Source: a virus
Reading direction: 5' to 3' (one strand)
IMG/VR virus record: IMGVR_UViG_3300019487_000050
Span: 1 to 43,192 of that record
DNA: 43,192 nucleotides
Positions within the stretch are counted from its first letter, which is position 1; each line of letters begins with the position of its first letter. The notes below the pieces were generated by a model. That model ran no database searches, was not told the origin of the DNA, and saw only the letters and a list, made by a program, of their open reading frames with translations. This document shows positions 19,221 through 43,192 of the stretch, in pieces. Both the position numbers and the translations under genes were made by a program.

Positions 19221-19226
19221 TCGTAA

Positions 19227-20993: not shown

Positions 20994-21010
20994 TATATTA
21001 TAATTACATA

Positions 21011-21214
21011 TTATCTCATACGTAGCCTTGGCAATTTTGGCTTAGCAAATTTACAATCTATCCGATTCGTATTATGACAATGTGGGCATATAGAGATTAT
21101 TTCCCCAGTAAAAAAATTAATCTCTACTCCCCCTTGAAAGTTTTTATGGCATTTCTCATTCCCGCAAATTAATATTATGGGGCTTATAGATTTAGGCTCG
21201 TTTTCTTCCGCCAT
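21011..21214 (-). CDS. Small zinc-ribbon protein
   Basis: A 67-residue protein with an ATG start; its first 23 bases overlap the 3' end of the 792-residue gene. Cys17 and Cys22 (C-x4-C) plus Cys43 and Cys46 (C-x2-C in ICPHCHN) form a four-cysteine zinc ribbon, resembling small Com-like or late-transcription zinc-finger proteins of phages. The C-terminus is basic (KFAKPKLPRLRMR), suitable for nucleic acid contact. Likely a nucleic-acid or protein-binding regulator; the exact role is unknown. The long overlap with the upstream gene suggests translational coupling. Confidence 0.68.
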   Translation of the reverse strand: MAEENEPKSISPIILICGNEKCHKNFQGGVEINFFTGEIISICPHCHNTNRIDCKFAKPKLPRLRMR

Positions 21215-23570: not shown

Positions 23571-23590
23571 GACAACCTCTGGTTTGAGAA

Positions 23591-25987: not shown

Positions 25988-26055
25988 ATTCAGGTTCTCT
26001 TTCGATAACCTAATATTGCTTCTAAGAACCCTTGTTTCCTTCTATTTATGATTCG

Positions 26056-26748: not shown

Positions 26749-26750
26749 AT

Positions 26751-27197: not shown

Positions 27198-27237
27198 CGT
27201 AAAGTTCTCCTTCCTATATATTTTCATATTATAAATT

Positions 27238-27576
27238 TTATAATTCCCCTTCTTTATCTTTTTTACTTGTAGATTCAATGAGTTTAATATCTACGTGATA
27301 AGGGGTTGTCAATACAAGACAACGAATGTTATTTGTCATTACTAATTCTTTTAAATAACTATCTATACGATCTATTTCAGCTTGAATTTCTTCTGCCTGC
27401 ATCTTGGCATCGCCAACCTTAATATGCAAAATCTTGCCGGTAAATTCTGAAAAGTCCACATCATCTTCTATATCCTGTAGCGTAGATTTTTTAGCTACTA
27501 TTTTTTGTTTTATAGATGCTTTTTGTACAGAAGTGTTGTTTGAGGCAGAATTGGTCTTTACGTTTGTAATAGCCAT
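27238..27576 (-). CDS. Unknown 112-residue protein
   Basis: The ATG shares one base with the TAA of the epimerase gene (TAATG), a strong sign of a real coupled gene. The first 35 residues are Ser/Thr/Lys/Asn rich and probably disordered. Then comes an acidic segment (DIEDDVDFSEFTGKI), a helix (KMQAEEIQAEIDRIDSYLKE) and a beta pair (IRCLVLTTPYHVDIKLI) before a lysine-rich end. No family is recognised, and no cysteine cluster or membrane segment is seen. Confidence 0.6.
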   Translation of the reverse strand: MAITNVKTNSASNNTSVQKASIKQKIVAKKSTLQDIEDDVDFSEFTGKILHIKVGDAKMQAEEIQAEIDRIDSYLKELVMTNNIRCLVLTTPYHVDIKLIESTSKKDKEGEL

Positions 27577-28574: not shown

Positions 28575-28681
28575 TGTCTCTCCTACTCTTTCATATCGTC
28601 TAATATAAAGAGTATCGAGAAAAGTATCACACAAGAATCTAAAGGGAAATGAACTAATAAAATGAATAGATAAGTATTATG

Positions 28682-29191
28682 TTAATGCTCGATATTATTG
28701 ATGACATTTTGATAACCCAAGACAAACAGAATTGTTTTTGCAAACTCTTTAGATTCTGGATGCAAGTTAATCTTGTACCAATTCGACTTTAACCATTCAG
28801 ACATATCTTTTGTTTTTGCATAAGATATTGAAGCTGCCATCCAATCCGCAATCATTTCTCTTACATATTTTCTAGGCATAAAAAGAGGAACAATTGTGCC
28901 TGGTTCTACCCCTTTTCCACTTCTTGTTAACCAATATTCCCAATGATGCTTATTGGTATTTTGATGATGCAGCCAAGCTTTTGCAAAACCGTCAGGATTT
29001 GATTTATCCCCACCAAACCATTTTGCATAATCAATCGCTTCAGAAAACATAAATTTAGACCAATCATGAATAATCAGTCTAAAATATCCTACACCTAACT
29101 CTCTTCCACATTTAAATACATACCATTTGTGTTGCAAAACAATAAAATAATGTCGTAGCAAAAGCCAAATTAACGTTTTCTTGAAATGCAT
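28682..29191 (-). CDS. DUF5662-like protein
   Basis: A 169-residue protein with an ATG start. It has the conserved histidine-rich pattern I know from DUF5662 phage/bacterial proteins: HKWYVFKCG at 21-29, IHDWSKF at 41-47, WLHHQN at 73-78 and HHWEYW at 82-87. Clustered His/Asp/Trp residues suggest a metal-binding or hydrolase-like site, but the activity of the family is not known to me. The N-terminal hydrophobic stretch (LIWLLLRHYFIVLQ) is part of the family's first helix rather than a clear membrane anchor. It is between the epimerase and a small unknown gene. Confidence 0.78.
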   Translation of the reverse strand: MHFKKTLIWLLLRHYFIVLQHKWYVFKCGRELGVGYFRLIIHDWSKFMFSEAIDYAKWFGGDKSNPDGFAKAWLHHQNTNKHHWEYWLTRSGKGVEPGTIVPLFMPRKYVREMIADWMAASISYAKTKDMSEWLKSNWYKINLHPESKEFAKTILFVLGYQNVINNIEH

Positions 29192-29209
29192 TGTGATAAT
29201 GGGAAAAGA

Positions 29210-29494
29210 TTATTGATTTCTGGAGATACGAGATGCCATTTCATCAGGGAAATTTATAATACGTTTTAAAAACGCAATATGAGACGGTATGTCACTTACA
29301 ATAACTGGGTTTCTTGAAGACCAAGGATCTCCAATAGCTATGCCATTTAAAGATTCTAAATGAATTCCTATCCATGCTTTTCCTTTTGTCCCGTCTGAAT
29401 ATATAACTTCTTGTGGTTCATCGCATAAAATTAAACCAAGATATCCCTGTGAACATTTTGCAATATCGCCACGTTGAGGAACAGTATCACTCAT
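29210..29494 (-). CDS. Small unknown phage protein
   Basis: I use the ATG of MSDTVPQRGD (complement at 29492-29494), preceded by AGAGAG. An upstream in-frame ATG at 29543-29545 has no ribosome site. The 94-residue product has RGDIAKCSQGYLGLILCDEPQ, then YSDGTKGKAWIGIHLE and WSSRNPVIV. This pattern (a small beta barrel with GxxGLIxxDEP and TGxxWxGIHLE) recurs in phage hypothetical proteins; no function is known to me. It is a short beta-rich cytosolic protein. Confidence 0.6.
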   Translation of the reverse strand: MSDTVPQRGDIAKCSQGYLGLILCDEPQEVIYSDGTKGKAWIGIHLESLNGIAIGDPWSSRNPVIVSDIPSHIAFLKRIINFPDEMASRISRNQ

Positions 29495-29554
29495 TTTTCT
29501 CTCTGTAAAAGTCCAGTTATTTAATACAGCGTTTGAAAAACACATGACAATTTA

Positions 29555-30844
29555 TTATATACCACTTCCAGAAAATAAATAACGAAACCAACGTGATCTT
29601 CCGCCAGGCAATGTATATTCAGGAGAAACAACAGCTCTATGTAACCCTCTATATGGGAAGTTTTTCTTCTGCTCTAACAATTTAAAGAGATATTCTTCAT
29701 AATTCTTTTTAAGCCCCTCTAAATTCTTGATTACTTGTTCTGCCCTTTCAGGACCACCATAAAGTTCAGCAGGCTCTCTCCAATTTAAATTAAACATCAA
29801 GGTACGAATACCATCTACTGCAGCAGAATACAACACAGCTGCAATGTGTCTATCTGGTAAGGTAGCTAAATTATATCCAGTGACAGGCGGAAAAGAATTT
29901 ACAACATGAAGACCATTACTAATAAATCTATCTAATTGATCATCAGAAAACCATCTAAAATTGTAAGTTGCCATTACAACTTCACTATCCATAAGCTCTT
30001 CATCAAATCTAACAGAACCCTTATTGAAGTCTATTGAATAACCTTCTGTAACAATATTATTGTTACGATAAATAGTTGTACCCCTCATCTGATTCCACAG
30101 AGGCTTTGTAAAATAAAATGTTCTATTATCACGAGAAGGTCTGGATGTTTCTTCATACATCGGATGGGCTTGAGCGCTATCTAATAATAACTCTAATGAT
30201 TGCTTCATCAATAACAATTTACCACTGTACAACATCGTGTCTGTTGCATCTTCTGCAACAATTATATGTTGATAAGTTGAGAATTCTTCTCCATCAATAG
30301 TGTATGTCCAATTTACATTATACTTGCCGATTTCCTGATCTACTGCGATTTCCCAATCAAATACATAAATTCCTGTTTTAACTTTTTCTGGCGCATTAGA
30401 ACTTACAACTTCTTCATTATCTGAATCTCTAACAATTGTATAAGTAATAGATTCAGGGTCTATTGCTGCTCCATCAAAATCACTAATTCTTATTATTACA
30501 GTTCCAATTGTGCCTTGTCTAAATACACCCCTAGTTTCAGTAGAGACTTGAGGTTTTGGAGAGGCTACGCCAAATGGTCCTATTTCTTGCGTAACATATT
30601 GTGGTTCATCACCAGAATTAGGAACAACTCGCCAACTAACTCTATAAACTATTCCATTAGAAGGATTGAAAGAGTATTCATATCTACCCACTGATGGATT
30701 CTCTACTGGTGTTCCAGAACTTACAATAACTGAACCACCTTCAGTCTTAATACCATATGTACCATCTTTTGAAGCCAATGTTACAGAATGGGCATTGGCG
30801 AGTACATCTTCTTCTTTGTATAATATAAATACTTTTTCGCTCAC
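29555..30844 (-). CDS. Virion structural protein with Ig-like domains
   Basis: A 429-residue protein with a GTG start (complement at 30842-30844) that overlaps the TGA of the upstream gene. The first 200 residues look like two Ig-like/beta-sandwich domains: the second has TRGVFRQGTIGTVIIRISDF and later KTGIYVFDWEIAVDQEIGKYNVNWTY, the pattern of phage Ig-like surface domains. A helical C-terminal region follows (about 330-405), with FISNGLHVVNSFPPVTGYNL and a Lys/Glu-rich coiled stretch. The neighbour encodes a related small beta domain. Likely a head or neck decoration or a whisker-type protein; the exact location in the virion is unknown. Confidence 0.58.
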   Translation of the reverse strand: MSEKVFILYKEEDVLANAHSVTLASKDGTYGIKTEGGSVIVSSGTPVENPSVGRYEYSFNPSNGIVYRVSWRVVPNSGDEPQYVTQEIGPFGVASPKPQVSTETRGVFRQGTIGTVIIRISDFDGAAIDPESITYTIVRDSDNEEVVSSNAPEKVKTGIYVFDWEIAVDQEIGKYNVNWTYTIDGEEFSTYQHIIVAEDATDTMLYSGKLLLMKQSLELLLDSAQAHPMYEETSRPSRDNRTFYFTKPLWNQMRGTTIYRNNNIVTEGYSIDFNKGSVRFDEELMDSEVVMATYNFRWFSDDQLDRFISNGLHVVNSFPPVTGYNLATLPDRHIAAVLYSAAVDGIRTLMFNLNWREPAELYGGPERAEQVIKNLEGLKKNYEEYLFKLLEQKKNFPYRGLHRAVVSPEYTLPGGRSRWFRYLFSGSGI

Positions 30845-31293
30845 GATTTACTGCTCCCAGTTGTTATAGAAATCTTGGAAGGCTTATTTGGTATATGTGT
30901 TATACGAGTTGACGAGCCTATTTCTGCCCCAGTTGTTACAGAAATATTCTGCTCGTTATTTCCTAATTGGTTTACACCAATATCATCATTTGTCGAATGT
31001 CCGACTTGAATATTAAAACTATCTTTTCCATCTCCACCTGATTCCGTTTCTTCAGGATTGATTGATGATGATATTAAAACAGTCGAAGGATCTCCGATAT
31101 CATAAAAAAATATTCCTCCCCGAAATCCTTCAGTAAAATTATCATAAGTCCATAAATATAAACCATCCCCAATTTCAACAAAACCCGTATTTATCACAGA
31201 ACCGTAAGGATTACCATCTGTATCTATTAATTGTGCGCGTAGATCAAGACCTTCATCCCCAATAGCTAAACTATAAGATAAAGTATAAGCCAT
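30841..31293 (-). CDS. Small beta-domain virion-associated protein
   Basis: A 150-residue protein with an ATG start, overlapping the next gene by 4 bases. The first 75 residues form a beta sandwich-like segment (LRAQLIDTDGNPYGSVINTG, then GDGLYLWTYDNFTEGFRGGI) similar in style to the Ig-like modules of the following gene. The C-terminal half is Ser/Thr/Gly/Asn rich with repeats of NxQxISVTTGAEIGSSTRI and SKISITTGSSKS, probably extended. Likely a structural accessory, function unknown. Confidence 0.58.
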   Translation of the reverse strand: MAYTLSYSLAIGDEGLDLRAQLIDTDGNPYGSVINTGFVEIGDGLYLWTYDNFTEGFRGGIFFYDIGDPSTVLISSSINPEETESGGDGKDSFNIQVGHSTNDDIGVNQLGNNEQNISVTTGAEIGSSTRITHIPNKPSKISITTGSSKS

Positions 31294-31320
31294 ACATGCT
31301 TATTTCAAGTCTGTATTAGC

Positions 31321-31344
31321 TTATCCTTTATCTTATCCTTTATC
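31321..31344. repeat. Tandem 12-bp duplication
   Basis: TTATCCTTTATC occurs twice in a row in the 80-base gap between two small genes. Plain replication slippage in AT-rich DNA is the simplest explanation. Confidence 0.8.
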
Positions 31345-31373
31345 TTATAAGTTAGTTATCTTCCTTATTTTTC

Positions 31374-31760
31374 TTATTCTTTTTTCTCTGTAGACGATTC
31401 TTCAAGTATTAATGGTTTTAAAGCAACCATATCAGCGGGACTAAACTCACATTTAGTTCTAACTAAATCCTCTAATTTAATTGTTCTTATTGATAAATCT
31501 TCTTCTTTTTTAAGAAATTCATCAAATTCGTCCATAAAAACTTTTATGTTTTCATTTTTAACTTGCATTAAACCACGTTCATTTATTGCACCATATTTCT
31601 CAATCAAACCTAATCTAGACTTCTCAATGGCAATAAATATCGGTTGTAATACACTAATATTTAATGACATATCATAAGCCGCCTGAGCAGAGAATTTTTC
31701 CTTTGAAGCATTCTCAACAGACAATCTCATATCTAAAATTTGACGTAACGTTAATTTCAT
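31374..31760 (-). CDS. DUF1617-like small phage protein
   Basis: A 128-residue protein with an ATG start that overlaps the TGA of the upstream 97-residue gene (ATGA). The pattern MKLTLRQILDMRLSVEN ... AAYDMSLNISVLQPIFIAIE ... LIEKYGAINERG ... DLVRTKCEFSPADMVALKPL resembles the DUF1617 group of small helical phage proteins that begin MKLxxRELLNA and contain KLIEKYG, EExELTPAEL and LEPFI-like motifs. Their role is unknown to me. The fold is expected to be an all-helical bundle, mostly acidic. Confidence 0.58.
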   Translation of the reverse strand: MKLTLRQILDMRLSVENASKEKFSAQAAYDMSLNISVLQPIFIAIEKSRLGLIEKYGAINERGLMQVKNENIKVFMDEFDEFLKKEEDLSIRTIKLEDLVRTKCEFSPADMVALKPLILEESSTEKKE

Positions 31761-32050
31761 ATTAAACCTCTTTCACGAGATATATTTTGTACGCAAGAAA
31801 AAAGAGAATTTAGCGCACTTGCTAACTCAGGATTATTGCTTGCTTCTAAAAACAAATCATCTACAGAAAATTTAATTATCTTAGGACCAATCTCAACCGC
31901 ACCATATTCATCAATTTCAATATACGGAGTTAGTGTAATATCTACTTTAACGGTTTTATTTGGTCCAGCAGATCTTGTTCTTAAATTCATCCAATATTTA
32001 TCATATACTTTCTCAGGAATAACTAACGGATTTTCACCAGTAATCGGCAT
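31757..32050 (-). CDS. Small unknown protein, first gene of the left operon
   Basis: A 97-residue protein with an ATG start preceded by AGGAGATTATT. It begins MPITGENPLVIPEKVYDKYW, has a beta-rich middle (TVKVDITLTPYIEIDEYGAVEIG) and a helical end (LASALNSLFSCVQNISRERG). The same C-terminal pattern, out of frame, occurs at 32313-32375, so the gene seems to have had a second copy. It follows the longest gap in the window and may be the first gene after a promoter. Function unknown; the coupling to the DUF1617-like gene suggests a shared role. Confidence 0.62.
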   Translation of the reverse strand: MPITGENPLVIPEKVYDKYWMNLRTRSAGPNKTVKVDITLTPYIEIDEYGAVEIGPKIIKFSVDDLFLEASNNPELASALNSLFSCVQNISRERGLI

Positions 32051-32312
32051 AATAATCTCCTATTTTTTTATTATCGACTTAATATTTATTGTTAACCTAA
32101 AACATATTTTTAAGGTAAGATTATATATAATTATCTTGATTTATTATGCAGTTTTTGTTTGTATATGCTGGAACATATAAATAAAAAATATATAATAGAA
32201 TGATATATCTCATTACGTCCCATAAAAATATCTCCCCCTAACGGAGAATACTTCGTGACATAATGTCACGAAGTATAGTATATTTAATTTACCAGTAATA
32301 CATTAAAGTCGC
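32051..32312. other. AT-rich non-coding gap upstream of the left operon
   Basis: No convincing gene is seen on either strand. It is the longest coding-free stretch. On the minus strand a TATAAT-like box (near 32121-32126) lies about 70 bases before the ATG of the 97-residue gene, but its -35 region is poor, so a promoter is only possible. A perfect inverted repeat at 32248-32276 and a small TCTCC/GGAGA stem beside it (32231-32247) followed by a short T-run on the minus strand are the only structured elements. Confidence 0.4.
32248..32276. repeat. Perfect 14-bp inverted repeat with one-base centre
   Basis: ATACTTCGTGACAT at 32248-32261 is the exact reverse complement of ATGTCACGAAGTAT at 32263-32276. 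No T-run follows on either side, which argues against a simple terminator. The symmetry and the position, about 300 bases from a genome mosaic junction, fit either a dimeric operator or a recombinase site. Both are inference. Confidence 0.65.
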
Positions 32313-32375
32313 TTAAATTAAACCTTTTTCGCGAACAATGCGTTGAACACAAGAAAAAAAGAATTCTCATCGTTT
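32313..32375 (-). pseudogene. Broken second copy of the 97-residue gene's C-terminus
   Basis: Reading the minus strand, NSFFSCVQRIVREKGLI and a TAA (32313-32315) match NSLFSCVQNISRERGLI of the 97-residue gene, and just upstream in another frame is ELAQTM, matching ELASAL. One or two bases are gained or lost between the two parts, so the frame is broken. There is no start codon or ribosome site upstream; the preceding 110 bases read as Thr/Ser/Asn-rich sequence without similarity. It looks like a decayed duplicate, not a gene. Confidence 0.6.
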
Positions 32376-32490
32376 GAGCAAGTTCGATATCTTGAGAGGT
32401 ATTTGAAGTATCTGTGCATGTTGTTTGACTGGTCTCAATAGTACTATGATTTGAGTGATCATAACCAGATTCAGTTTCAAAAAATAAAAT

Positions 32491-32620
32491 TTAAAACCGT
32501 ATCATATATTTATTTCGCCTCATACCATATAATCGACCAATTTCTGCCGGAGATAATGCATAGTTAAATACCATCGTCTCATCAATCAAACCCGCCCAAA
32601 TGCCCGCCGCTGCTAAAGAA
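32491..32620 (-). pseudogene. C-terminal fragment of a LamG-like fibre domain
   Basis: In the frame ending at TAA 32491-32493 the minus strand reads AAAGIWAGLIDETMVFNYAL followed by SPAEIGRLYGMRR. This is the typical end of LamG/concanavalin-like domains (GxIDEVxIYNRALSxAEIxxLY) found in phage tail and fibre proteins. No start codon or domain core lies upstream: the DNA runs directly into the portal gene in a different reading frame. The exact fusion point is blurred because the two frames share GGCGGGCATTTGGGCGGGTT. The fragment is not expected to be translated on its own. Confidence 0.6.
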
Positions 32621-33217
32621 TTTGTTGGCGTACTTATCTGCCGCCTTGATCGCGGAAAGAGTGTCAGACATTAATTCAACAACGGAGTATCCTTTCAGTC
32701 CGTCAAAGCCAAGACCCGGCAAATGTAAGATTTCTCTTGCTTCAACTGGCACCCACTTTGACCGTCCGTCAACTTCTATTTCAACTGCATACCACGTGCG
32801 TAGAGTGCCGCTGCTGTCTGGTGCTCGAAACGGTTGCACCCGATCCGGCATCAAGTTGTAAAGAGCTTTCGGACGGCTACCGGAATACTCAATACGTGCG
32901 TATCCGTTTCCCCAGCCTACAGCGTGACTCTCTAACGTTTCCCAAAACGTGAACGGAATAACAAGATCATTGATTTCATCATTGACGATCCACGATAACG
33001 GGTGATCTTGTTTGTCTCTTTTCTCGCCAGTTTTTTTGTAGACGTGTTTCGGCAGTGCCGCGAACGCTTCAGACAAGAAACGTAAACCGGAATAGAAAGC
33101 CGGTATCGTCAATGCTGAAGCCGAATTCATCGGTAAGCCGTACTGAGAAAGCGGATCACCAATAAGATTAGTTGTGGTGACTGTAGTTACAAATTCTTCT
33201 TTGTTATCGTTAGACAT
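32582..33217 (-). CDS. HK97-type portal protein, truncated to 211 residues
   Basis: The ATG overlaps the terminase stop by 8 bases. The sequence has the HK97-family portal pattern: PAFYSGLRFLSEAFAALPKH near residue 38, HPLSWIVNDEINDLVIPFTFWETLE at about 75-100, GNGYARIEYSGSRPKALYNL then PDRVQPF at about 105-135, and LHLPGLGFDGLKGYSVVELM at about 170-190. Members are normally about 400 residues, but here the frame stops after KFFSSGGHLGG at 32582, so the crown, clip and most of the wing are missing. It is therefore probably non-functional as a portal. The stop falls at the junction with the LamG-like fragment. Confidence 0.85.
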   Translation of the reverse strand: MSNDNKEEFVTTVTTTNLIGDPLSQYGLPMNSASALTIPAFYSGLRFLSEAFAALPKHVYKKTGEKRDKQDHPLSWIVNDEINDLVIPFTFWETLESHAVGWGNGYARIEYSGSRPKALYNLMPDRVQPFRAPDSSGTLRTWYAVEIEVDGRSKWVPVEAREILHLPGLGFDGLKGYSVVELMSDTLSAIKAADKYANKFFSSGGHLGGFD

Positions 33218-34799
33218 AAGCTATTAAACCGTCCATATTTTGTTCCACGTCGTCACTGACTCTTAGCATTGCTCGTGCTATTCCAATGATTGTGGCTACT
33301 ATTCCATCTACTTTGTATTTATTACTACCGTGATATCTGCCTTTTGCCTTTGGCTTAACTGGTCTAATATTTCCGTGGCGATCCGATTCCACTTCAACAT
33401 TACCGGCCATCCACCGCATACACGGATTATTTTGAATCACGATTTGCTTAGTCGTGAGCCGTCTTTCAAACTCTTTGCAAGCGGTACTCATTGCCAGATA
33501 TGATTGATACACCGGCACTGTTGTAATACCGGCATTATCGAGCTTGGCCGTAATCTGATTTGCGTTATACGGATCAAAGCCGAATTCAATGATTGGATTC
33601 GTGACCGCGAGATTCATCACTTCATCAACAATGAAATCGTGGTCAATGACTTCGGCTTTTGGTATCTCGATTATGTGACCGTCTTTTACCCACTGTCGGT
33701 AATCTATGCCGTCTTCTTTGCTCCTCTTATCAACTTGCATTTCCGGCATGTACAGACGTGGCACCACGTACCACTTATCGGCTTGCGGATAGATCGTAAT
33801 CAGAGCCGTGATATCGTGTATCTCTGACAAATCGAGAGCGACAATACACGGCTGTTTGTCGAATTGCTTTTCGTCAAACTTGGCTACGCACGAATCATAA
33901 AGACCCAGTGACAACCAACGTGTTTGTTGTTCCGTCCACTGATTGAGATACAGACGACGAAAGACGTTTTCGAGTGCTGGTGTTTCTTTCGCCTTGATAC
34001 ATTCTTGGTGGTAGAATTCTTCCGGCACCGTTACGCCAAGTGACGGATTGGCTTTGTACCACGTCTTCGGATCATCCCACGCATCTTTAGCACCCGCCGC
34101 AAAGATAGCCGCATAGAACGTGTCGTCTTCGCTCTCGCCTTTCAGTGTCTTTACTGCCGTGTTGTGAAGCTCGCGGCAGATTGTTTCATCGCCGCCGTAA
34201 CCGGCTGTAGTGATAACAATGTTGAGTGGTTGCCGTCTGGCACCTTGCGAGCTTGTGAGTGCGTCCCACAACTCGCGATCCGGTTGCTCGTGCATTTCGT
34301 CAAAGATCAAACCACTGACAGAGAATCCCATTTTGCCTTTTGGCTTGCCCGACAAGCAACGTAAGACACTATTTGACTTCGGGTGTTCGATATGCCAGCG
34401 GCAGATTTTCAGACGCTTAGAAAGCTCCGCACTGGCGGATATGATCTTCTTTGCGTTGTCGAATGTGATTGATGCTTGTTGTGTGTTGTTGGCCGCTGAG
34501 TAAACTTCCGCTCCTTGCTCATTATCCGCAAGCAACAAATACAAACCAATACCAGAAGCAAAGAAGCTCTTACCGGCCTTACGTGGTACTTCGATGTAGA
34601 CGGTGCGGTAACGACGTAGATCGTCGCTCTTTCGTTTCCAACCGAATATGTCGCGGAGTATCTTTCTTTGCCACGGCAACAGTTTGAAGCGTTGCCCGGC
34701 ATACTCGCCTTTCCAGTGAACTAATAGCGTTTCAAAGAATCTGCAAACTCGATCCGCCGCTTGATTGTCAAAGTAATACTTATCTTGATCGACCGTCAT
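33210..34799 (-). CDS. terL: Terminase large subunit (HK97/Terminase_1 type)
   Basis: A 529-residue ATPase-nuclease that drives genome packaging. The ATPase domain has a Walker A-like VPRKAGKS at 71-78, Walker B GLIFDEMHE at 163-171 and a coupling motif NIVITTAG at 193-200. The nuclease domain has an RNase H-like acidic triad: Asp323 in ALDLSEIHD, Asp409 in EFGFDPYNAN and Asp498 in KYKVDGIVAT. The length is usual for the family and nothing is missing. The base composition is clearly higher in GC than in the genes left of 32 kb. It is followed immediately by the truncated portal and preceded by the small subunit, the standard order. Confidence 0.95.
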   Translation of the reverse strand: MTVDQDKYYFDNQAADRVCRFFETLLVHWKGEYAGQRFKLLPWQRKILRDIFGWKRKSDDLRRYRTVYIEVPRKAGKSFFASGIGLYLLLADNEQGAEVYSAANNTQQASITFDNAKKIISASAELSKRLKICRWHIEHPKSNSVLRCLSGKPKGKMGFSVSGLIFDEMHEQPDRELWDALTSSQGARRQPLNIVITTAGYGGDETICRELHNTAVKTLKGESEDDTFYAAIFAAGAKDAWDDPKTWYKANPSLGVTVPEEFYHQECIKAKETPALENVFRRLYLNQWTEQQTRWLSLGLYDSCVAKFDEKQFDKQPCIVALDLSEIHDITALITIYPQADKWYVVPRLYMPEMQVDKRSKEDGIDYRQWVKDGHIIEIPKAEVIDHDFIVDEVMNLAVTNPIIEFGFDPYNANQITAKLDNAGITTVPVYQSYLAMSTACKEFERRLTTKQIVIQNNPCMRWMAGNVEVESDRHGNIRPVKPKAKGRYHGSNKYKVDGIVATIIGIARAMLRVSDDVEQNMDGLIAYV

Positions 34800-34835
34800 T
34801 AACTGCTATTCGCCTCATACTTATTTGCCTTTCGC

Positions 34836-35228
34836 TTAAAAGAAATCTGTGTCGTCTTTGTCGTTGTCAACGTCCAAGAGAAAGCGTGATCGTGCTGTCG
34901 GAGTTAATCCGAATTCCGATAGCAACGGTCTAATTCTTTCCCACGCTTGATTGATCAATGTATGTGCCGGATGCTTAATTAGCTCGCCTTTTTGACCGAT
35001 TAAGAAATCTCCGTCTTTGGCGATTGCATCTTCAGCACGTCGATACACGGCCCAACTCTCGCATAGAATCATCAACGAGTAGTAATCGGAGTGACTAACG
35101 ATCCGCTGTGGTCCCAATATTTCCACGAGACGTTTCCACGCTTTGGCCGCTTCGCCTTTGAAATGCTTTGGCGGTTTCATTTCTACTTGTTCATCTAATG
35201 CAAACGGGTTTGGTTTTCTGCCTTTCAT
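34836..35228 (-). CDS. terS: Terminase small subunit (P27 family)
   Basis: A 130-residue protein that recognises phage DNA for packaging. I start at the ATG giving MKGRKPNPFA because P27 proteins usually begin M(R/K)GRKP; an upstream TTG adds only six residues. The core PKHFKGEAAKAWKRLVEILG, SDYYSLMILCESWAVYRRAE, HPAHTLINQAWERIRPLLSE and LTPTARSRF matches P27, and the acidic end (DNDKDDTDFF) is common. It lies 36 bases upstream of terL and downstream of an HNH gene, the normal cos-phage arrangement. Confidence 0.9.
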   Translation of the reverse strand: MKGRKPNPFALDEQVEMKPPKHFKGEAAKAWKRLVEILGPQRIVSHSDYYSLMILCESWAVYRRAEDAIAKDGDFLIGQKGELIKHPAHTLINQAWERIRPLLSEFGLTPTARSRFLLDVDNDKDDTDFF

Positions 35229-35232
35229 TTCG

Positions 35233-35373
35233 TCAATTCCGTTCAAAACTGCTAAATAACCGTATGAAAACTGAAGAGACCACGATTCGGTCCCCGTCTT
35301 TTGAGCCTAAAAGTTTTGGACCGCCTACCCCATATTTGATCTCACTTTTTATACTGGATTCATTCGATTTCAT
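35233..35373 (-). CDS. Possible small ORF between HNH and terS
   Basis: A 46-codon frame from an ATG (complement 35371-35373) to a TGA 4 bases before the terS ATG. It encodes a small basic peptide with YGVGGPKLLGSKDGDRIVVS. It fills most of the 160-base gap between HNH and terS, and translation into terS would be coupled. No strong ribosome site is seen, and no family is recognised, so it may be only a leader or a chance frame. Confidence 0.3.
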   Translation of the reverse strand: MKSNESSIKSEIKYGVGGPKLLGSKDGDRIVVSSVFIRLFSSFERN

Positions 35374-35390
35374 TTGTTTTATTCCAATTC

Positions 35391-35762
35391 TCACGTTGTT
35401 TTACCTTTCGCTTTCCGTTCCGATGCTGATTTGATTGAATGACACCACTTGCACAACGCTTGGCAATTGGATCGTTCAAGCTCTAAGTGTGGTGCGTCTT
35501 TACGTGGTATGATGTGATCTACTTCGTATGCGTAATTATCATTGCAGATATTGCATACTGGCTGCTCACCTATCACTTGATTACGTAACGCTTGCCACGC
35601 TTTGGATCGGTAGAATTGCTTAGCTGTTGTGTCTCTTGTCGTCTTGTCCCACAACGCTTGATACTCTTGATATGTTTTCTCGCCTCTCTGCTCGTGTCTC
35701 TCACAGTAGCGATGCTCGGTATAGTTTGGACAACCGGGCCACTTACATGATCTCTTTGGCAT
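35391..35762 (-). CDS. HNH endonuclease
   Basis: A 123-residue protein with an ATG start that overlaps the stop of the preceding gene by one base. It has the HNH nuclease core with zinc cysteines: C70-x2-C73, YEVDHIIP (Asp82, His83), a later Asn99, and C104-x2-C107 with His108. A further Cys6/Cys11/Cys20/His23 group near the N-terminus could bind a second zinc. HNH nucleases next to terS/terL are typical of cos phages of the HK97 kind, where they assist terminase in cutting at cos. This context supports that role. Confidence 0.93.
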   Translation of the reverse strand: MPKRSCKWPGCPNYTEHRYCERHEQRGEKTYQEYQALWDKTTRDTTAKQFYRSKAWQALRNQVIGEQPVCNICNDNYAYEVDHIIPRKDAPHLELERSNCQALCKWCHSIKSASERKAKGKTT

Positions 35763-36151
35763 TATGTGGTAAACGTCTTAATACAATCCAATATCCATAT
35801 TGCTTTGAATTTGTTTGCTGCTCCGCTGGTCGGTGTTACAACAACTTCCGCTTGATACTTGATACCGTTTCCACCTACCGGCCAATTCGTACCGGCTGCA
35901 TACCAAACGAAGTCCCACCCGATATCATCTTCAGTCCAACCGTTATTTGTTTGGAGCGAATCCTTAACTGAGACTGTTTTATCAAGCGTACCTGTTGATA
36001 TCTGAGTTTCAGTATCAAGCCGTGTTACTCTGTAAGTAATACTCTCAACAGTTGCTTGTGTAATGTAGTCGTCTTCAATATCTGTTAGTCTGCCTAACAA
36101 TGCTGCGGCACTGCCTTGTATCACCGTGCCGTAATAAATCATTACTTTCAT
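35762..36151 (-). CDS. Unknown 129-residue structural-like protein of the GC-richer cassette
   Basis: ATG start. The beta-rich sequence (MKVMIYYGTVIQGSAAALLG, ESITYRVTRLDTET, KYQAEVVVTPTSGAANKFKA) suggests a small sandwich or barrel. No cysteine pair of note and no membrane segment. It overlaps the HNH gene by one base and follows a 106-residue gene by 14 bases. No family is recognised; a fibre accessory or head-tail role is possible. Confidence 0.55.
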   Translation of the reverse strand: MKVMIYYGTVIQGSAAALLGRLTDIEDDYITQATVESITYRVTRLDTETQISTGTLDKTVSVKDSLQTNNGWTEDDIGWDFVWYAAGTNWPVGGNGIKYQAEVVVTPTSGAANKFKAIWILDCIKTFTT

Positions 36152-36165
36152 AAACTCTTGTACCT

Positions 36166-36486
36166 CTAAATACTCACCACTTGAGCCGCTTTGGTGCCGG
36201 GTGTATATGTACTGCTCTTGCGTGATCCGACTGTAAATACCTCTTGTTTCTGCGTTCCAACAACGTGCAAATCTTGTGTCTGTGGTCCGGCAATGTGAAT
36301 ATCTTTGTCCGACGTGACGGGAAAGACGGCTAATTCATTTGCTCCACTGATATGTATATCGGATGCAACAAAATCAATCGGTAATCCGTCTGCCTTTGGA
36401 TCGAGTAGAAATCGGTGCCAATCATACAACGTGAAATTTGCCCACTCATCAAGCGTAAATGTTTTCCAATCCTTTAGCATTCTCAC
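36166..36486 (-). CDS. Unknown 106-residue protein with DW-rich start
   Basis: ATG start. The N-terminus has a repeated pattern (DWKTFTLDEWANFTLYDWHRFLLD) in which a W/F-T-L-D-x-W unit recurs, then a region with DIHISGANELAVFPVTSDKD, DIHIAG and DLHVVGTQKQEVFTVGSRKS, another repeated beta motif (D-x-H-x-(S/A/V)-G). This looks like a short beta-solenoid or peptide-binding structural protein. Family unknown. It sits 9 bases downstream of the beta-helix gene. Confidence 0.5.
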   Translation of the reverse strand: MRMLKDWKTFTLDEWANFTLYDWHRFLLDPKADGLPIDFVASDIHISGANELAVFPVTSDKDIHIAGPQTQDLHVVGTQKQEVFTVGSRKSSTYTPGTKAAQVVSI

Positions 36487-36495
36487 TGACTCCGT

Positions 36496-37932
36496 TTAGT
36501 ACGCGAATGAATGTTCTGAACCACCGCCGCCAGTACATTCGCTTTGACCGGCTCCAATGTCTGTATAAGAGACAGTTGGATTTGGTGAGCCGTAACCGCT
36601 CTGCAACTGTAAGAATGACTGTTGAATGTTCTTAGCTTCGCTTGACGTGATACTAAAATCTCCGTCGTCTGGATCTGCCCACGGTGTTGTATTGGCCGAA
36701 TATGTTATTGATCCGCGAATGAGTAAATGATTGAACGTGGATGTAGTATCATTACCGATTTCACCGTCACCATTAGCCATTGTTCCAGAACCGAAACCAC
36801 AATTGGAAATGATTCCATTTCTTAGATCACTTGCGGCGGTATTTATGTTAATTCCCCACCCACCATTAGCTACGAGATTACAACTCTCAATCACTACGCT
36901 TGTTGGTACTGTGAATTCCATAATGATTCCGTCACCACCGTTATTATAACTATCACAATTCATTAACATTGTACTGGCACAATCAATATTGAATCCGTGT
37001 GATCCATTTGAATCTGCAATACATTGAATGAACGATGAGCCGTCAGTAATGTGAAAACCCATTGCGTTAGCAGTTGCATTATCGTGGCTAATACATCTAA
37101 CGAAATGACCTTCGATTGCTGCCGTCGTAAATCCACCATGATTAGCCGTATTGCTTTGATTGCAATCGTAAGCTTCGCATTCGTAGAACGTGCAATGATC
37201 CGCCGCACTGGTGATTTGAAATCCGGTTGTTCGTACTGAGAACGCACGACAATTAATTAATATGTTGTTGGCCGCTTGTACTGAGAACCCAACGTTAGCC
37301 GTTCCAGCGTTTCCGTTTTGTGATACATCGTGACGAAGAAATGTTGAATCTTCGCCAGTTATCGCGAACATCTGAAATGATGATCCGGTAGCTGGACCTT
37401 GATAATGTACACGTCCGAGACCGTCACCCGGAGTTACTGAATACGGCTCGAAAATAGTTGGACCGTCTAACGATCTGGCAATGACTGCGGTAATCGAATA
37501 AGTACCCGCCGCGATATTCACACGTGGCGTGTCACCACTCGTATTGGTCGTGTTTAGATCAACTATGTTATACGGAACGTCGATAGCTCCGGTTGGCGGT
37601 GCCCACGCTCCACCAACACGTAAGTTTCTTGTGAGTGCTCCGGTTGATACTGCTGATCCGCCGTCTGCCGTTGTTGAGACGGTGATTGTGGTAGAAGTGA
37701 CTGCGGTAATTCTCGCAATGTAGCCGGTGAATGTTGCCGCATTCGTGTGAACCGATGCGAACATTCCAACAGTCACACCGTCACTTGATGGATTGCCGCT
37801 TGCGACAGTAAACACTTTTGTCGTGTTGTCCCATGATCCGTTTGTGTAACTGGCAAAAGCCGCGTCTGTATTTGTTGATCCGGCATTAAGTGCTGATCCA
37901 CCGGAGCGAATGTAAAATTCTGTGTATGCCAT
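36496..37932 (-). CDS. Right-handed beta-helix tail spike-like protein
   Basis: A 478-residue protein with an ATG start. Its N-terminal 135 residues (MAYTEFYIRSGGSALNAGS and later VTSTTITVSTTADGGSAVST) form a beta-rich head. From about residue 190 on, the sequence shows parallel beta-helix rungs with stacked Asn/Asp/Cys and short turns: HCTFYECEAYDCNQSNTANH, CISHDNATANAMGFHI, CIADSNGSHGFNIDCAS, CDSYNNGGDGIIM and CNLVANGGWGININT. Such spikes in phages bind or cleave surface polysaccharide. No catalytic residues are assigned. It belongs to the GC-richer cassette by composition. Confidence 0.72.
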   Translation of the reverse strand: MAYTEFYIRSGGSALNAGSTNTDAAFASYTNGSWDNTTKVFTVASGNPSSDGVTVGMFASVHTNAATFTGYIARITAVTSTTITVSTTADGGSAVSTGALTRNLRVGGAWAPPTGAIDVPYNIVDLNTTNTSGDTPRVNIAAGTYSITAVIARSLDGPTIFEPYSVTPGDGLGRVHYQGPATGSSFQMFAITGEDSTFLRHDVSQNGNAGTANVGFSVQAANNILINCRAFSVRTTGFQITSAADHCTFYECEAYDCNQSNTANHGGFTTAAIEGHFVRCISHDNATANAMGFHITDGSSFIQCIADSNGSHGFNIDCASTMLMNCDSYNNGGDGIIMEFTVPTSVVIESCNLVANGGWGININTAASDLRNGIISNCGFGSGTMANGDGEIGNDTTSTFNHLLIRGSITYSANTTPWADPDDGDFSITSSEAKNIQQSFLQLQSGYGSPNPTVSYTDIGAGQSECTGGGGSEHSFAY

Positions 37933-37955
37933 TTTTTATTTCATATTCTCCGTTC

Positions 37956-40388
37956 TTATGTTCTCACAACTTCAAGCGTGATTGATACTTTTTCCACGTC
38001 TGCCGCTGAATCAACAATGAATTCCAAAATGTCACCGGCTGTAATGCTGGTGGTCCATGTTGACAAATTGATATCACGGTTCTTTTGTACCGACGATAGA
38101 CTTGGTTTTTCTGATCCCGCGATTGATGATGTTGTTGGATAGCTCGCGTAATCAGACTTCTTAACATCGACAACAATATCTCCGGTTTGATCCGCTATGA
38201 TAGTCCAACTCGTGACTGTGCAATCAAACGGAATTGTTAGAAAGTGTTTTTGACCGGTTGTGATTGCAGAGCCGCCGCCGTCGATATCAAATACGATACG
38301 CTCTGTTAAACCTACAATTGTGTTAGTGCCAGTAAGTGTTAGACTTGATGTAATCTCTAACTCTGCTGCTTCAACGAATCCACCGAATATTGCATCATCG
38401 GACGTGTCTATTTCGCCGACAAATTGACCATTGATTGTTCCAGTAATAGACACATTACCAGTGCGACCAACAGTAAATTTTGAACTACCTCCCACCTTAG
38501 CATCGATCAAATAATGATTGCCGCTACCTATTGCAGTCTCAGTACGATTAATTAAAAGATCAGTACCGCCAGCACTACCTGATTGATTATAAGTTGGAAC
38601 GATACCAACAGTAACATTGATACCTGTACTGGTCGCGGCCATATTAACAGATTCACCTACCGTGAATAATGAATGAGTACCGCTGCTATTTGCTTTATTT
38701 GCAGTATATCTGATTCTCAGTCCAGTAGTGTTGGTGCCATTATCGGCTTGAACATCGAATGTGGTGTTAATGCTCATTCTGCGGAAACCATTCGATGCAA
38801 TACCGCCATTGGAGATAATACATTGTTGGCTACCACCACCGTAAAATGTTACACCCGATACTGACGTGCCCGGATTATTTTCATACATACCGGCAGCGTT
38901 TGTGCCGCTTTCAAATGCAATACCTAACCCAGTTGTTGAAGCAGAGCCACCCGGAACTTTTAAAGTTCCATTGAATGTAATTGCTTGATTTGTATCAATT
39001 GTTGATCCAAGAAATGCTAATTTATCTAAGCCGCCATCCGCATAGATCGCGTGAGTTTGTCCGTTCGTTTCGACACGAAAATCATAATCGTTTGACCCTT
39101 CATTTATGACCAGATCGTTTGCATTTGCTTGTAATTTATCGACGCCATTGACGGTAATTCGAACTGTCGATGCTCCATTGACGACCGTTCCAGTTCCGGC
39201 TTTTTGAATGGCTACGTTGTTGAATGTTGGTGCTGTCGTATCTGATCCAAACCAAAGACCAGCATAATAAGTTCCTGCCGAATCAATATAAGTAAATAGT
39301 GCTTGTCCACCGAAACTTCCGCCGGTTACTGTCGAATTGAAAACTGCATTACCTGCTACCGTCAGTGGCTGAAGACCTGTAGTAGTTCCGATTAAAACAC
39401 GATCATTTCCTCCGTCAACGAATAACATTTCAGCGTTGCCATTTGATTCAACCCGAAAATCCACATCGTTTGATGCTTCATTAAATACGATTGCAGTTGA
39501 TCTAAAATCTGCGATAACACCAGGAGAACTAGTACCAATTTGAACTGCATTCAATCCCGCATCCAGCAATAGCAAATTCGATGCTGTTGTTCCTGACATA
39601 ATGATATCACTATCAATTTGGCTGTCATTTATAAATATTGCTCCATCGAATCCACCAGTTCCGCTACTTCCTTTTGTACCAGCATTGATAGATATATATC
39701 CTCCGTCTCCTGCAGTAGTACCTCCTGAACCACCCGATCCAGCCATTATCACAATAGAACCAGCTTGACCACCAGCAGCAAGAGTAGAAGCTCCTCCATT
39801 TCCAGAATATATCCCTATATACCCGCCTTCTCCAGCGTTTGAACTTGTGTTTGTAGCAGATCCGCCATTACCAGATTGTAAAGATATTGAGCCAGCTCCC
39901 CCTGCTGATGCGGAAGTTCCAGTTGTGCCTCCTCCTGTTCCAGAATATATATAAACACCAGTGCCATAGCCAGCCGCTGTACTATTAGCAGTTGTACTCC
40001 CACCATAGCCTCCTATAATCTGAAAATCATCTAATGTATCACCAGGCCCAACAGTCGTATAATTGTTGGTAATCTGATACATTGCTATTGGAGTATTTAT
40101 CCCACCTATCAGCAACTCTCTTTCAGATCCAACAGCACTAAATCCATTTGGATTAAATTCTAAACCATCACCTGTGCCAGCAGGCGTCAATCCGATTGTT
40201 AAAGGGTAATTTGGATCAGGAAAATTCGCACCATTCCAGAACGTAGCATGAGAGTCGGTAGTAGATGCAGTATTATCCGAACCATTACCTATAATCCATG
40301 CTTCGTCAGGTATGGAACCAAAACCGCCTTCTAAAATTACCCTTTCTCTAAAGGTATATGTTTTTCTCTCTTTAAATGCTGCTGCCAT
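37956..40388 (-). CDS. Mosaic tail fibre protein
   Basis: An 810-residue protein with an ATG start. The N-terminal 290 residues have Gly-rich tandem units of the form GG(Y/S)I-I-(S/A)G-GG (GEGGYIGIYSGNGG, GDGGYISINAGTKG), similar to the next fibre gene. Two repeats at about 300-340 and 425-465 match each other (NEASNDVDFRVESNGN...FVDGGNDRVLIGT and NEGSNDYDFRVETNGQ...YADGGLDKLAFLG). The C-terminus has a common fibre module: FDIDGGGSAITTGQKHFLTI and ITAGDILEFIVDSAADVEKV. The DNA at the 5' end is AT-rich like the rest of the phage; from about 39.5 kb towards 38 kb it is richer in GC. The gene therefore appears to be a fusion of host-phage head and foreign tail parts. Confidence 0.75.
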   Translation of the reverse strand: MAAAFKERKTYTFRERVILEGGFGSIPDEAWIIGNGSDNTASTTDSHATFWNGANFPDPNYPLTIGLTPAGTGDGLEFNPNGFSAVGSERELLIGGINTPIAMYQITNNYTTVGPGDTLDDFQIIGGYGGSTTANSTAAGYGTGVYIYSGTGGGTTGTSASAGGAGSISLQSGNGGSATNTSSNAGEGGYIGIYSGNGGASTLAAGGQAGSIVIMAGSGGSGGTTAGDGGYISINAGTKGSSGTGGFDGAIFINDSQIDSDIIMSGTTASNLLLLDAGLNAVQIGTSSPGVIADFRSTAIVFNEASNDVDFRVESNGNAEMLFVDGGNDRVLIGTTTGLQPLTVAGNAVFNSTVTGGSFGGQALFTYIDSAGTYYAGLWFGSDTTAPTFNNVAIQKAGTGTVVNGASTVRITVNGVDKLQANANDLVINEGSNDYDFRVETNGQTHAIYADGGLDKLAFLGSTIDTNQAITFNGTLKVPGGSASTTGLGIAFESGTNAAGMYENNPGTSVSGVTFYGGGSQQCIISNGGIASNGFRRMSINTTFDVQADNGTNTTGLRIRYTANKANSSGTHSLFTVGESVNMAATSTGINVTVGIVPTYNQSGSAGGTDLLINRTETAIGSGNHYLIDAKVGGSSKFTVGRTGNVSITGTINGQFVGEIDTSDDAIFGGFVEAAELEITSSLTLTGTNTIVGLTERIVFDIDGGGSAITTGQKHFLTIPFDCTVTSWTIIADQTGDIVVDVKKSDYASYPTTSSIAGSEKPSLSSVQKNRDINLSTWTTSITAGDILEFIVDSAADVEKVSITLEVVRT

Positions 40389-40389
40389 A

Positions 40390-41847
40390 TTATAACTTTA
40401 CTAAAGGATCTCCTATTGCCTGCAATCTATCCGTATTCCTGCTATACCAAGCACACTCGATAAATGTATATCCTTTTTCCCATAACCCCCAAAACAAACC
40501 ACTTGTAACTCCACCTAAAAATGGTTCATCAGTATGAGTTACAGCACCAACTGGCGTATTTGAATAAGCAGTTCCTCCAAAAGCATTTGAAGAAAACCAA
40601 TCTATAAAATTGCCTTGAAATACTGATCGTTGTCCGTTAAAACTTTCTACTGTTCTAATTAGATACCAACTACTATTTCCAGTAAAAACTACACTTCCAT
40701 TATTCGCATAATTACCTCCCATACCTCCATTAGCTCCCCAACATAAATAGCCTCTTACGTTTGAACAGTTAGTTAAATGCGCAACTGCTGACGTGGTAAT
40801 AGATATAGTTAAGTTTTCATCTCTAATATACGCAGTATCTGGCGTCTCAAATACACTGCCATAAACTGCTTGATATTCATCTATAAAATACCCCCCTGTA
40901 GCAGTAATACCCGCATCTGTACCTGAAACAACGACATTAGAATCGTATGCATTTGCTATTTTATCAATATATGCTTCGCAATCAGCTTCAGTTCCTAATG
41001 CTAAAGAAGTTATTAAGGCAGTTGCTCCCTGATATTGCCCTAATGAAAAATTGTTTTTAACTGAAGTCATATGGTTATAAGCATCACCAGTTCTAGTTCC
41101 CAATGTGCTTAATGCACTATATAGTAGATATTGAACGCTAGGATTGCCTATCCATGTTAAATTAGGAGTGCTGGTTCGAGATGGAATATCAGGCATTAAA
41201 ATTATATATCTAATAAATTTATCATTAGTATCTATCCAATCTAAAATAGGATCTCTTATATCTGTTTCAAAATCTTCTAGTGTTATTAATTCTGAGGTCG
41301 TACACGTTATACTCATTACATTAGCAGTAGCCATACCTGGTCTATTTGCTATATAATAATCTTTTATATTCTCGCTAAATCCTGATGAAGATGTATTCCA
41401 AACAATAAGAACATGTTCCGAAACATCTAATGTATCTGGAGTCCATACTTCTGTTACACTTATGTCCGTATTGGTAGAATTGGTCAAAGAGATATTTTTA
41501 GTTCTAGATGGTTCAAAAGTTGTTGCCTGCGATACACCACGAATTGTAAAAGTACCATCATCAACATATTCAACCAAACCATCTTGTGTGACAGTTGCTT
41601 TTGTTTCGTCTAAAGATGATAAAACAACAACAGGAAGAGTTCCACTAATAACACTTCTTTGTGGAACTATATATATTTTCCATTGCGTACCATTAGTAGC
41701 ACCAGTTTCAGTAATAGTTTCTCTATTAACATCTAAAATTTGATCATTATCAGAAGACGATCCACCTGGATCTAGAACCAGAGGATCTGTTGGTTCTACA
41801 ACCAATACAAACTCATAACCAGGTACATATCCACCAATGTGAGGCAT
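40390..41847 (-). CDS. Fibre-locus protein with Big2-like and TIGR03790/gingipain-like domains
   Basis: A 485-residue protein with an ATG start. Near the N-terminus (about 75-110) a Big2-like Ig segment reads LSSLDETKATVTQDGLVEYV followed by DGTFTIRG. From about 140 on, HVLIVWNTSSSGFSENIKDY, then TDIRDPILDWIDTNDKFIRY and FIDEYQAVYG, and further on GYLCWGANGGMGGNY and AVTHTDEPFLGGVTSGLF with a YTFIECAWYSRNTDRLQAIG end, resemble the TIGR03790 family and gingipain-like (C25) folds, where a GYxSWGS segment and a late EPFL/GYTFAEA/GDPL pattern are typical. It would be a virion or receptor-binding component. Protease activity is not claimed: the usual catalytic His/Cys pair was not pinned down, though Cys at GYLCW is notable. 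Confidence 0.6.
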   Translation of the reverse strand: MPHIGGYVPGYEFVLVVEPTDPLVLDPGGSSSDNDQILDVNRETITETGATNGTQWKIYIVPQRSVISGTLPVVVLSSLDETKATVTQDGLVEYVDDGTFTIRGVSQATTFEPSRTKNISLTNSTNTDISVTEVWTPDTLDVSEHVLIVWNTSSSGFSENIKDYYIANRPGMATANVMSITCTTSELITLEDFETDIRDPILDWIDTNDKFIRYIILMPDIPSRTSTPNLTWIGNPSVQYLLYSALSTLGTRTGDAYNHMTSVKNNFSLGQYQGATALITSLALGTEADCEAYIDKIANAYDSNVVVSGTDAGITATGGYFIDEYQAVYGSVFETPDTAYIRDENLTISITTSAVAHLTNCSNVRGYLCWGANGGMGGNYANNGSVVFTGNSSWYLIRTVESFNGQRSVFQGNFIDWFSSNAFGGTAYSNTPVGAVTHTDEPFLGGVTSGLFWGLWEKGYTFIECAWYSRNTDRLQAIGDPLVKL

Positions 41848-41851
41848 AAAA

Positions 41852-43192
41852 TTACGTAGTTGGGACTAAAAATCCTGTTACAACAAAATATCCAGTATGT
41901 GCTGATGCTGTTGAAGCTGTACTTATGCTTGCGGCAATATTAGTACTAGCTGCTATATCGCCCGTTTCATCATCCGATATACTTCTTGCACCAGCGGAAT
42001 TAGAAGTACTTAATGTAGGACCAAAATATTCATCATCATCGCTTGTATTACCGAATTTAACATACGGTGCTGTACCAGGGGTTGTAATTGCGGATGTTAC
42101 AACTTCCATAGTATCAATGAAAAATACATACCCAGTTGGAACCGTAAATATAGTTGTCTGTGCTACTGTTTTAAAATTTACAATATCTGATCTAATTGCA
42201 TATTTATTTAGAACTATTGCATCGGTCCCTAACGTAATTGCCGCATTAAGGAAACTTGTTGCAATAATAGATCCAACAACATGAAGCTTAGCTTGCGGAG
42301 AAGAAGTTCCCATACCGACTCTATCATTTGCAGCATCGGTCATAATTAGATTAGGGTCGCCTACACCTTGAATATGAGTGTCTGTATCTAATCCAGAATC
42401 ATTGATGATTACCTGACCGTTGACGGCACTTCCTCCACCACTTCCTGCTTCATTAGCCTGGATTAGAACCCAACCACCTCCTCCCTTATCGCCAGATGAG
42501 CTATTACCTCCAGCTCCAGCTTGAATAGTTAACCAACCGCCATTACCAGCATTCGATCCTGTACCAGTAGCATTGGCTCCCTCTCCTGGGTATATAGATA
42601 TCCATGCTCCGTTACCAGCATTTGTAGCATTTGCAGTTGTTGCTCCACCTGATGCGGCTTGAATTACAAAATCGTCAGGCGACATACCTGTTGGAGCATT
42701 GCCTTGAATAATTGATGAATTGTAATAATCTAAATTTAAAGACACACCATGTAATGAAACTCCTAGTGTAGTGATATCAATGATTAAATTCCCGCCCACC
42801 GTAATGCCTAGATTATCAGCACCAACCAGGTATATACCAGTGTTAGAGTCACTTGAAAAACTATATGTAGGATTGGTATTTGATCCATTTGATAAAAGAA
42901 GTGGATCTGGTATTGCCCCTGAATAACCAGATCTCCCTGAATACCCTGAGTAACCACTTATACCAGAGTAAGCTGAATATCCACTATATCCTGATCTTCC
43001 AGAATATCCGCTGTAACCTGAGATACCGGAATATGCACTATATCCACTGTAACCAGAAATACCACTATAGCCAGAATATGCTGAATAACCACTATAGCCT
43101 GAAATACCGCTGTATGCACTGTAACCCGAATAACCACTTGATCCTGAGTAAGCACTATAACCACTGTATCCTGAGATACCTGAATAAGCGCT
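41852..43192 (-). CDS. Collagen-like tail fibre protein, 5' end cut by window edge
   Basis: The frame is open from the right edge down to the stop at 41852, giving at least 446 residues. A GTG at 42797-42799 is internal, since the upstream 131 codons continue without stops. The visible protein starts with 30 Gly-X-Ser triplets, then AIPDPLLLSNGSNTNPTYSF and SNTGIYLVGADNLGITVGG. Next come Gly-rich solenoid-like units (GNGGWLTIQAGAGG, GGGWVLIQANEAG), then an INDSGLDTD block and NDRVGMGTSSPQAKLHVVGS, and a C-terminal beta domain (TIFTVPTGYVFFIDTMEVVT). It shares the Gly-rich block and the INDS-to-IGTSSP block with the mosaic fibre gene, so the two are paralogues. Confidence 0.8.
   Translation of the reverse strand, partial: SAYSGISGYSGYSAYSGSSGYSGYSAYSGISGYSGYSAYSGYSGISGYSGYSAYSGISGYSGYSGRSGYSGYSAYSGISGYSGYSGRSGYSGAIPDPLLLSNGSNTNPTYSFSSDSNTGIYLVGADNLGITVGGNLIIDITTLGVSLHGVSLNLDYYNSSIIQGNAPTGMSPDDFVIQAASGGATTANATNAGNGAWISIYPGEGANATGTGSNAGNGGWLTIQAGAGGNSSSGDKGGGGWVLIQANEAGSGGGSAVNGQVIINDSGLDTDTHIQGVGDPNLIMTDAANDRVGMGTSSPQAKLHVVGSIIATSFLNAAITLGTDAIVLNKYAIRSDIVNFKTVAQTTIFTVPTGYVFFIDTMEVVTSAITTPGTAPYVKFGNTSDDDEYFGPTLSTSNSAGARSISDDETGDIAASTNIAASISTASTASAHTGYFVVTGFLVPTT
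42920..43192 (-). repeat. Thirty Gly-X-Ser triplets encoded by degenerate codons
   Basis: The minus strand encodes (G/A)-(Y/I/R/S)-S thirty times without a break, with an Ala in place of Gly at triplets 1, 5, 9, 13, 18 and 25 from the window edge, and continues off the window. The serine codons are mixed (tca, agt, tct, agc, tcg), so the repeat is kept at the protein level and is not a fresh DNA duplication. It resembles collagen-like stalks of phage fibres but lacks proline. Confidence 0.9.

Follow-up and report, generated by a model that had tools for sequence, protein, structure and literature searches.

Exchange of tail-fibre tips between phages is a known process. The locus described here resembles such an exchange, having an in-frame hybrid fibre gene with the N-terminal part of one phage and the tip of another beside a gene for a beta-helix protein, but it differs in that about 3 kb of packaging genes would have been carried along and half-genes left behind. 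Homology-facilitated illegitimate recombination, a mode of DNA integration described in bacteria in which one end is homologous and the other illegitimate (PMC3240628), is also alike in its join by microhomology or none at one end and its gain of a linear fragment, and perhaps in having similar sequence at the other end. Bacterial chromosomes were involved in that work, whereas here the event would have taken place between phages, and it is seen in one contig with the parents absent. Chimeric contigs from viral metagenomes likewise hold two genomes per contig and break in portal and fibre genes (PMC5610896, PMC3901335); the present contig differs from them by two joins to one genome, one of which has an overlap below assembly k-mers.

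The packaging genes themselves compare with the HK97-type phrog_9 module. The order HNH-terS-terL-portal is also found in IMG/VR 3300048591_000801 (L026), to which the TerL of this locus is 45% identical; identity to Terrisporobacter phage TPDSL_ph1 is 38% for TerL and 38% for the portal protein. In L026 and the other relatives the full portal is followed by protease and capsid, whereas the portal here ends at residue 209. Upstream of the module, the examined relatives, which are distant, carry exonuclease, helicase, methyltransferase or unknown genes, in contrast to the fibre-like genes of this locus.

Composition and gene content of the block

The window, i.e., the whole stretch of DNA analysed, is the complete IMG/VR record IMGVR_UViG_3300019487_000050 (43,192 bases, free of N). 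The large genes are all encoded by the minus strand, and the flanks and the block share one reading direction. Read 5' to 3' on that strand, a collagen-like fibre protein gene cut by the record end is followed by genes for a 485-aa Big_2 protein, an 810-aa fibre protein, a 478-aa beta-helix protein, two proteins of 106 and 129 aa without assigned function, HNH, TerS, TerL and a portal fragment, and then by 32 kb of AT-rich virion and accessory genes (Table 1). The collagen-like gene starts with a GYSGYSAYSG repeat (42930 to 43192, minus strand) that runs past the record end.

Table 1. Coordinates of the flanks, block genes and junctions in the window
Feature	Position	Strand	Description
Left flank, AT-rich phage	1..32497	-	GC 0.345; tail/virion genes, volactin-type actin, PhoH, epimerase, glycosyltransferase; LamG-type remnant at end
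LamG/ConA-like gene remnant of AT-rich phage, 3' end	32497..32601	-	35 codons, IWAGLIDETMVFNYALSPAEIGRLYGMRRNKYMIRF then stop; AT-type codons, LLR -2.3
Left junction	32585..32602		Portal reading stops at 32591, LamG reading starts at 32601
Portal gene, 5' half	32582..33217	-	211-aa ORF: 209 native residues, then FD and stop; phrog_12 E 1.5e-39
TerL, full length	33210..34799	-	phrog_9 E 3.5e-156; Walker A G76 K77 and D167 E168 conserved/invariant in alignment
TerS	34836..35246	-	phrog_83 E 5.7e-31
HNH endonuclease	35391..35762	-	phrog_144 E 6.1e-31
129-aa ORF	35762..36151	-	No assigned function; donor-type codons
106-aa ORF	36166..36486	-	No assigned function; donor-type codons
478-aa right-handed beta-helix protein (tailspike/fibre-like)	36496..37932	-	PF13229 E 3.6e-6; z -12, donor-type codons
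Hybrid fibre ORF, 810 aa	37956..40388	-	N-terminal ~300-350 aa of AT-rich type, remainder donor type
Second fibre-motif copy, candidate donor copy	39061..39104	-	77% identical over 44 nt to 39,439-39,482; 378 bp away, in block
Right junction interval	39240..39515		In frame; change-point likelihood nearly flat over 39,245-39,515
Right flank, AT-rich phage fibre operon	39516..43192	-	810-aa N-part, 485-aa Big_2 protein, collagen-like 446-aa protein

The GC content was 0.455 at positions 32,590 to 37,950 versus 0.345 at 1 to 32,500, and GC3 was 0.45 to 0.50 in terS, terL and the portal gene versus approximately 0.2 in the left genes. The fibre genes of the block were intermediate (GC3 of 0.27 to 0.37) and climbed toward the terminase, the series from fibre tip to terminase end being 0.27, 0.33, 0.37, 0.41, 0.37, 0.45, 0.45, and 0.50. 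This rise in codon usage blurs the right edge of the block. Tetranucleotide and dinucleotide distances were rejected as proof that the two flanks match, being non-discriminating at 1 to 3 kb, where other AT-rich phages score alike. Synonymous codon usage was therefore adopted, with a model trained on the 32 kb of left genes so that amino-acid bias was removed.

Against this model, the left genes gave z values of -4.2 to +2.1 when left out one at a time, while every block gene fell between -5.1 and -19.0, and codon usage departed from the rest of the window from about 32,585 to 39,240/39,515. The genes of the right flank scored -0.4 (N-part of the 810-aa ORF), +2.1 (485-aa gene) and -2.0 (collagen-like gene), and the 810-aa ORF was split, with -0.4 for its N-part against -8.2 for the rest. 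When pooled (approximately 1,200 codons), the right flank lay at a chi2/n of 0.054 from the left model, compared with 0.033 to 0.067 for contiguous left pools, a minimum of 0.092 among control pools (n = 241), a median of 0.17 among the 50 AT-rich ones of these (22 loci), and 0.917 for the right flank against the block model. The right flank and the left part thus come from one genome, or from two very close ones, and because the flanks match, the window contains two junctions. The first-pass annotation had described a GC-richer block with complete terminase genes and a cut portal, lying between AT-rich sequences with fibre genes on the right; GC, GC3 and the PHROG matches bear this out, as does the left-type codon usage of the right flank. 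A uniform composition, which it had named as an argument against foreign origin, is not what GC and codon usage show.

A reading with a single break, at the left only, would make 32,585 to 43,192 one phage with natively AT-rich fibre genes, joined once to the AT-rich phage. It fits the gradual rise of GC3 from fibre tip to terminase, the continuity of the fibre ORF and the existence of relatives that span its N-part and motif, and tetranucleotide and dinucleotide measures alone do not link the right flank to the left part. However, by codon usage the right flank is as close to the left model as the left pools themselves are and is far from the block, with no control coming as close, and a single break is accordingly unlikely.

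HNH, TerS and TerL are all complete, and their order is canonical. On the evidence of their sequences, these three proteins and the portal fragment are of the HK97-type phrog_9 group: the TerL family, its ATPase motifs and the gene order all agree, while a complete portal-protease-capsid run is absent. The portal ORF covers only positions 79 to 253 of the 646 in the phrog_12 profile, and in alignment with three full portals (about 420 to 460 aa) it is conserved to residue 209. The block has neither the second portal half nor a protease or capsid gene, AT-rich genes coming next after the portal. In its 6.7 kb it carries, besides HNH-terS-terL-half-portal, a fibre tip, two small ORFs and the gene for the beta-helix protein. 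Starting in a fibre gene and ending in mid-portal, it is a slice with random ends from a siphovirus-type genome and not a clean packaging cassette. The best TerL identity among everything found was 45% (L025/L026); searches found no close relatives of TerL in IMG/VR or GTDB genomes, and none of the beta-helix protein in IMG/VR. The donor genes exhibited neither decay nor compositional drift.

The complete and canonically ordered HNH, TerS and TerL could also be taken as a functional second packaging module, or as a satellite-like element packaging its own or the recipient's DNA. The portal is halved, however, and integrase, replication gene, capsid and protease are all missing. A family profile search of the block found no integrase or replication gene, the two block ends carried no direct repeats or target-site duplication beyond chance, and the searches found no second contig bearing this unit. 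Lacking integrase or replication genes and defined ends, the block does not have the make-up of a satellite, and this reading is highly improbable. The first-pass annotation had proposed a foreign packaging cassette in a fibre locus, possibly a case of packaging-module transfer. Foreign DNA inside the fibre operon of the AT-rich phage stands, but the term cassette does not, since fibre, beta-helix and small ORFs are included. The capture of a functional packaging module is not supported by a block that runs from a fibre gene to mid-portal without half the portal, protease and capsid.

Structure of the two junctions

At the left end, the portal gene, cut at residue 209 of ~420, runs out of frame into what remains of a LamG-type gene, its final ~35 codons. 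The portal remains conserved with full-length portals until KFFSSGGHLGG (residue 209, base 32,591), and the LamG reading, IWAGLIDETMVFNYALSPAEIGRLYGM..., starts at base 32,601 in a different frame. The remnant matches positions 130 to 150 of 151 in PF13385 (Laminin_G_3; E 0.0018, below Pfam's own cut-off), and searches of its peptide against phages and the PDB matched nothing. The two readings can share no more than ~11 nt (CATTTGGGCGG), outside which neither resembles its family. The join thus has the features of an illegitimate one. The left edge had earlier been placed sharply at 32,590 and is better given as 32,585 to 32,602; the block itself, then drawn as 32590 to 39500, is confirmed as distinct in composition. 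Beyond the edge, a perfect 13-bp inverted repeat or hairpin with a 3-base loop (32,248 to 32,276) lies about 220 bases past the end of the LamG remnant (32,497), and the next operon begins beyond it at 32,050.

The right edge does not lie at HNH or at a gene border but within the fibre locus, inside the 810-aa ORF. The best change point of codon usage was at codon 305 (39,473), and the join can be placed to no better than ~275 bp. A conserved fibre motif, VFNEASNDVDFRVES...VLIGTT at 39,384 to 39,491, falls within this interval, where it reads VFNEASNDVDFRVESNGNAEMLFVDGGNDRVLIGTT, and a similar copy is present in the block (Table 1). Motif-like sequences with roughly 42 to 76% identity were found in unrelated contigs of other samples, and in three of these (L009, L011, and L016) the alignment reaches part of the Gly-rich N-part. 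Since such relatives span the N-part and the motif, both are probably native to the recipient, and the right break probably lies at or after the motif, as judged from the alignments. The pattern of the motif 23-mer had no exact match in IMG/VR. At its C-terminus, the 810-aa protein has a domain that also occurs in virion proteins of cyanophages (phrog_10330, residues 689 to 806).

The left join is thus in the 3' end of the LamG gene and the right join in the 5' part of a fibre gene, positions expected if one gene or two neighbours had been interrupted. The N-part and the LamG end may once have formed one gene, although this is weakened by the motif-bearing fibres of the relatives, in none of which a LamG end was found.

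Both junctions could also be artefacts, a low-copy siphophage fragment having been linked twice to an AT-rich phage of high abundance during library preparation, amplification or assembly. The portal and LamG genes are both truncated, the ends ignore module and gene borders, the donor genes are intact and undrifted, only one contig is available, and the right join coincides with a widespread fibre motif. In benchmarks, the share of chimeras usually stayed under 2.5% across assembled viral contigs, and under 5% among contigs at least 10 kb long (PMC5610896), and terminase and portal genes are named among the functions in chimeric assemblies (PMC3901335); these rates of a few per cent and the genes involved favour an artefact. 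Conversely, one AT-rich genome would have to be joined twice, in a single orientation and each time within a fibre-type gene. The left overlap of at most ~11 nt does not suit an ordinary de Bruijn or k-mer collision, as an assembler with a k of 31 or more would not be expected to join two genomes on it alone, and the motif 23-mer without an exact IMG/VR match also speaks against an artefact. An artefact is a serious possibility, rather short of an even chance but nearly as likely as the explanation preferred below.

The AT-rich phage of the flanks

The first-pass annotation found neither terminase nor capsid genes of the AT-rich phage in the window, and PHROGs and Pfam detected none in the record, which the window covers completely. 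The AT-rich part encodes a Mu-gp36-like head-tail adaptor, PhoH, DUF5662 and a GDP-mannose-dehydratase-like epimerase. Two adjacent tail-tube homologues (13626 to 15606, minus strand) match phrog_290/PF18906. Proteins of 792 and 798 aa, encoded upstream of the head-tail adaptor (21192 to 25987, minus strand), had no confident family match; by position, they are candidates for the portal/MuF and capsid-related proteins of the AT-rich phage. Their single-sequence AlphaFold models reached a pLDDT of 40 (798 aa) and 35 (792 aa), too low for use. Three giant ORFs of 1075, 1358 and 1310 aa (1110 to 12357, minus strand) were also without a confident family match. IMG/VR scans gave no relatives of the 1358- and 1310-aa proteins and no close ones of PhoH. 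Glycosyltransferase-like and GDP-mannose-dehydratase-like genes (16071 to 17261 and 27576 to 28634, minus strand) lie amid the virion genes and suggest glycan modification of the virion or of the host surface.

A homologue of volactin-family actins (PF25216, E 3e-56) is also encoded amid virion genes (19227 to 20360, minus strand). Among its relatives are genes of two phage records, 485 and 595 kb long, and of many genomes of Planctomycetota and archaea; volactin-like genes, although named for haloarchaea, are common in Planctomycetota (genome-contig loci L105 to L184). The homologue is a possible phage cytoskeletal protein and a possible clue to the host. Synteny was found neither with the two volactin-bearing huge phages nor with the volactin-bearing genome contigs. 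The volactin relatives suggest, short of proof, that the AT-rich phage, with about 36 kb in the record, is very large, perhaps a huge phage with a genome above 200 kb, and that its host may be a planctomycete or an archaeon. If so, the lack of terminase and capsid genes from a 36-kb piece would be unsurprising.

Origin of the joined sequence and its meaning

The explanation preferred here is that one-sided homologous plus illegitimate recombination replaced the fibre tip, with HNH-terS-terL-half-portal as passengers; its probability is judged to be very nearly, but not quite, even. During co-infection, a linear fragment of an HK97-type siphophage genome would have entered the fibre operon of an unrelated, probably very large AT-rich phage. 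One fragment end may have paired with the recipient fibre gene at the tail-fibre repeat motif, which is widespread, and the product would be an in-frame hybrid fibre carrying a new tip. The other end would have been joined to the recipient's LamG gene through microhomology, halving the donor portal and removing most of the LamG gene. The fibre tip would be the selected unit. The passenger genes would be intact because the event was recent, not because the recipient uses them.

Recombination is favoured by the shared codon signature of the flanks, the single reading direction, the placement of both ends in fibre-type genes, the in-frame hybrid and the short left overlap, and further by a right join that is in frame at a motif with a second copy in the block and similar motif-bearing fibres in unrelated contigs. 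It is disfavoured by the single contig, ends that are random with respect to modules, undecayed donor genes and the imprecision of the right join. That the contig is real, and that a lectin-like fibre tip was swapped in one step for that of an unrelated siphophage, with an intact terminase as passenger in a pre-trimming snapshot of illegitimate mosaicism, is put forward tentatively, at somewhat below an even chance.

If the joins are artefacts, the record would be instructive as an A-B-A chimera deposited in a public viral collection, and the chimera would give it a wrong terminase label. If the joins exist in nature, the contig shows what illegitimate recombination between unrelated phages yields before any trimming, the half-genes being still present. 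Such products are thought to be the start of phage mosaicism and are rarely seen. It would then also show a route by which a fibre tip and a terminase move together, and the terminase of a contig may not belong to the phage that forms the contig, which calls for caution given the frequent use of TerL for placing phages.
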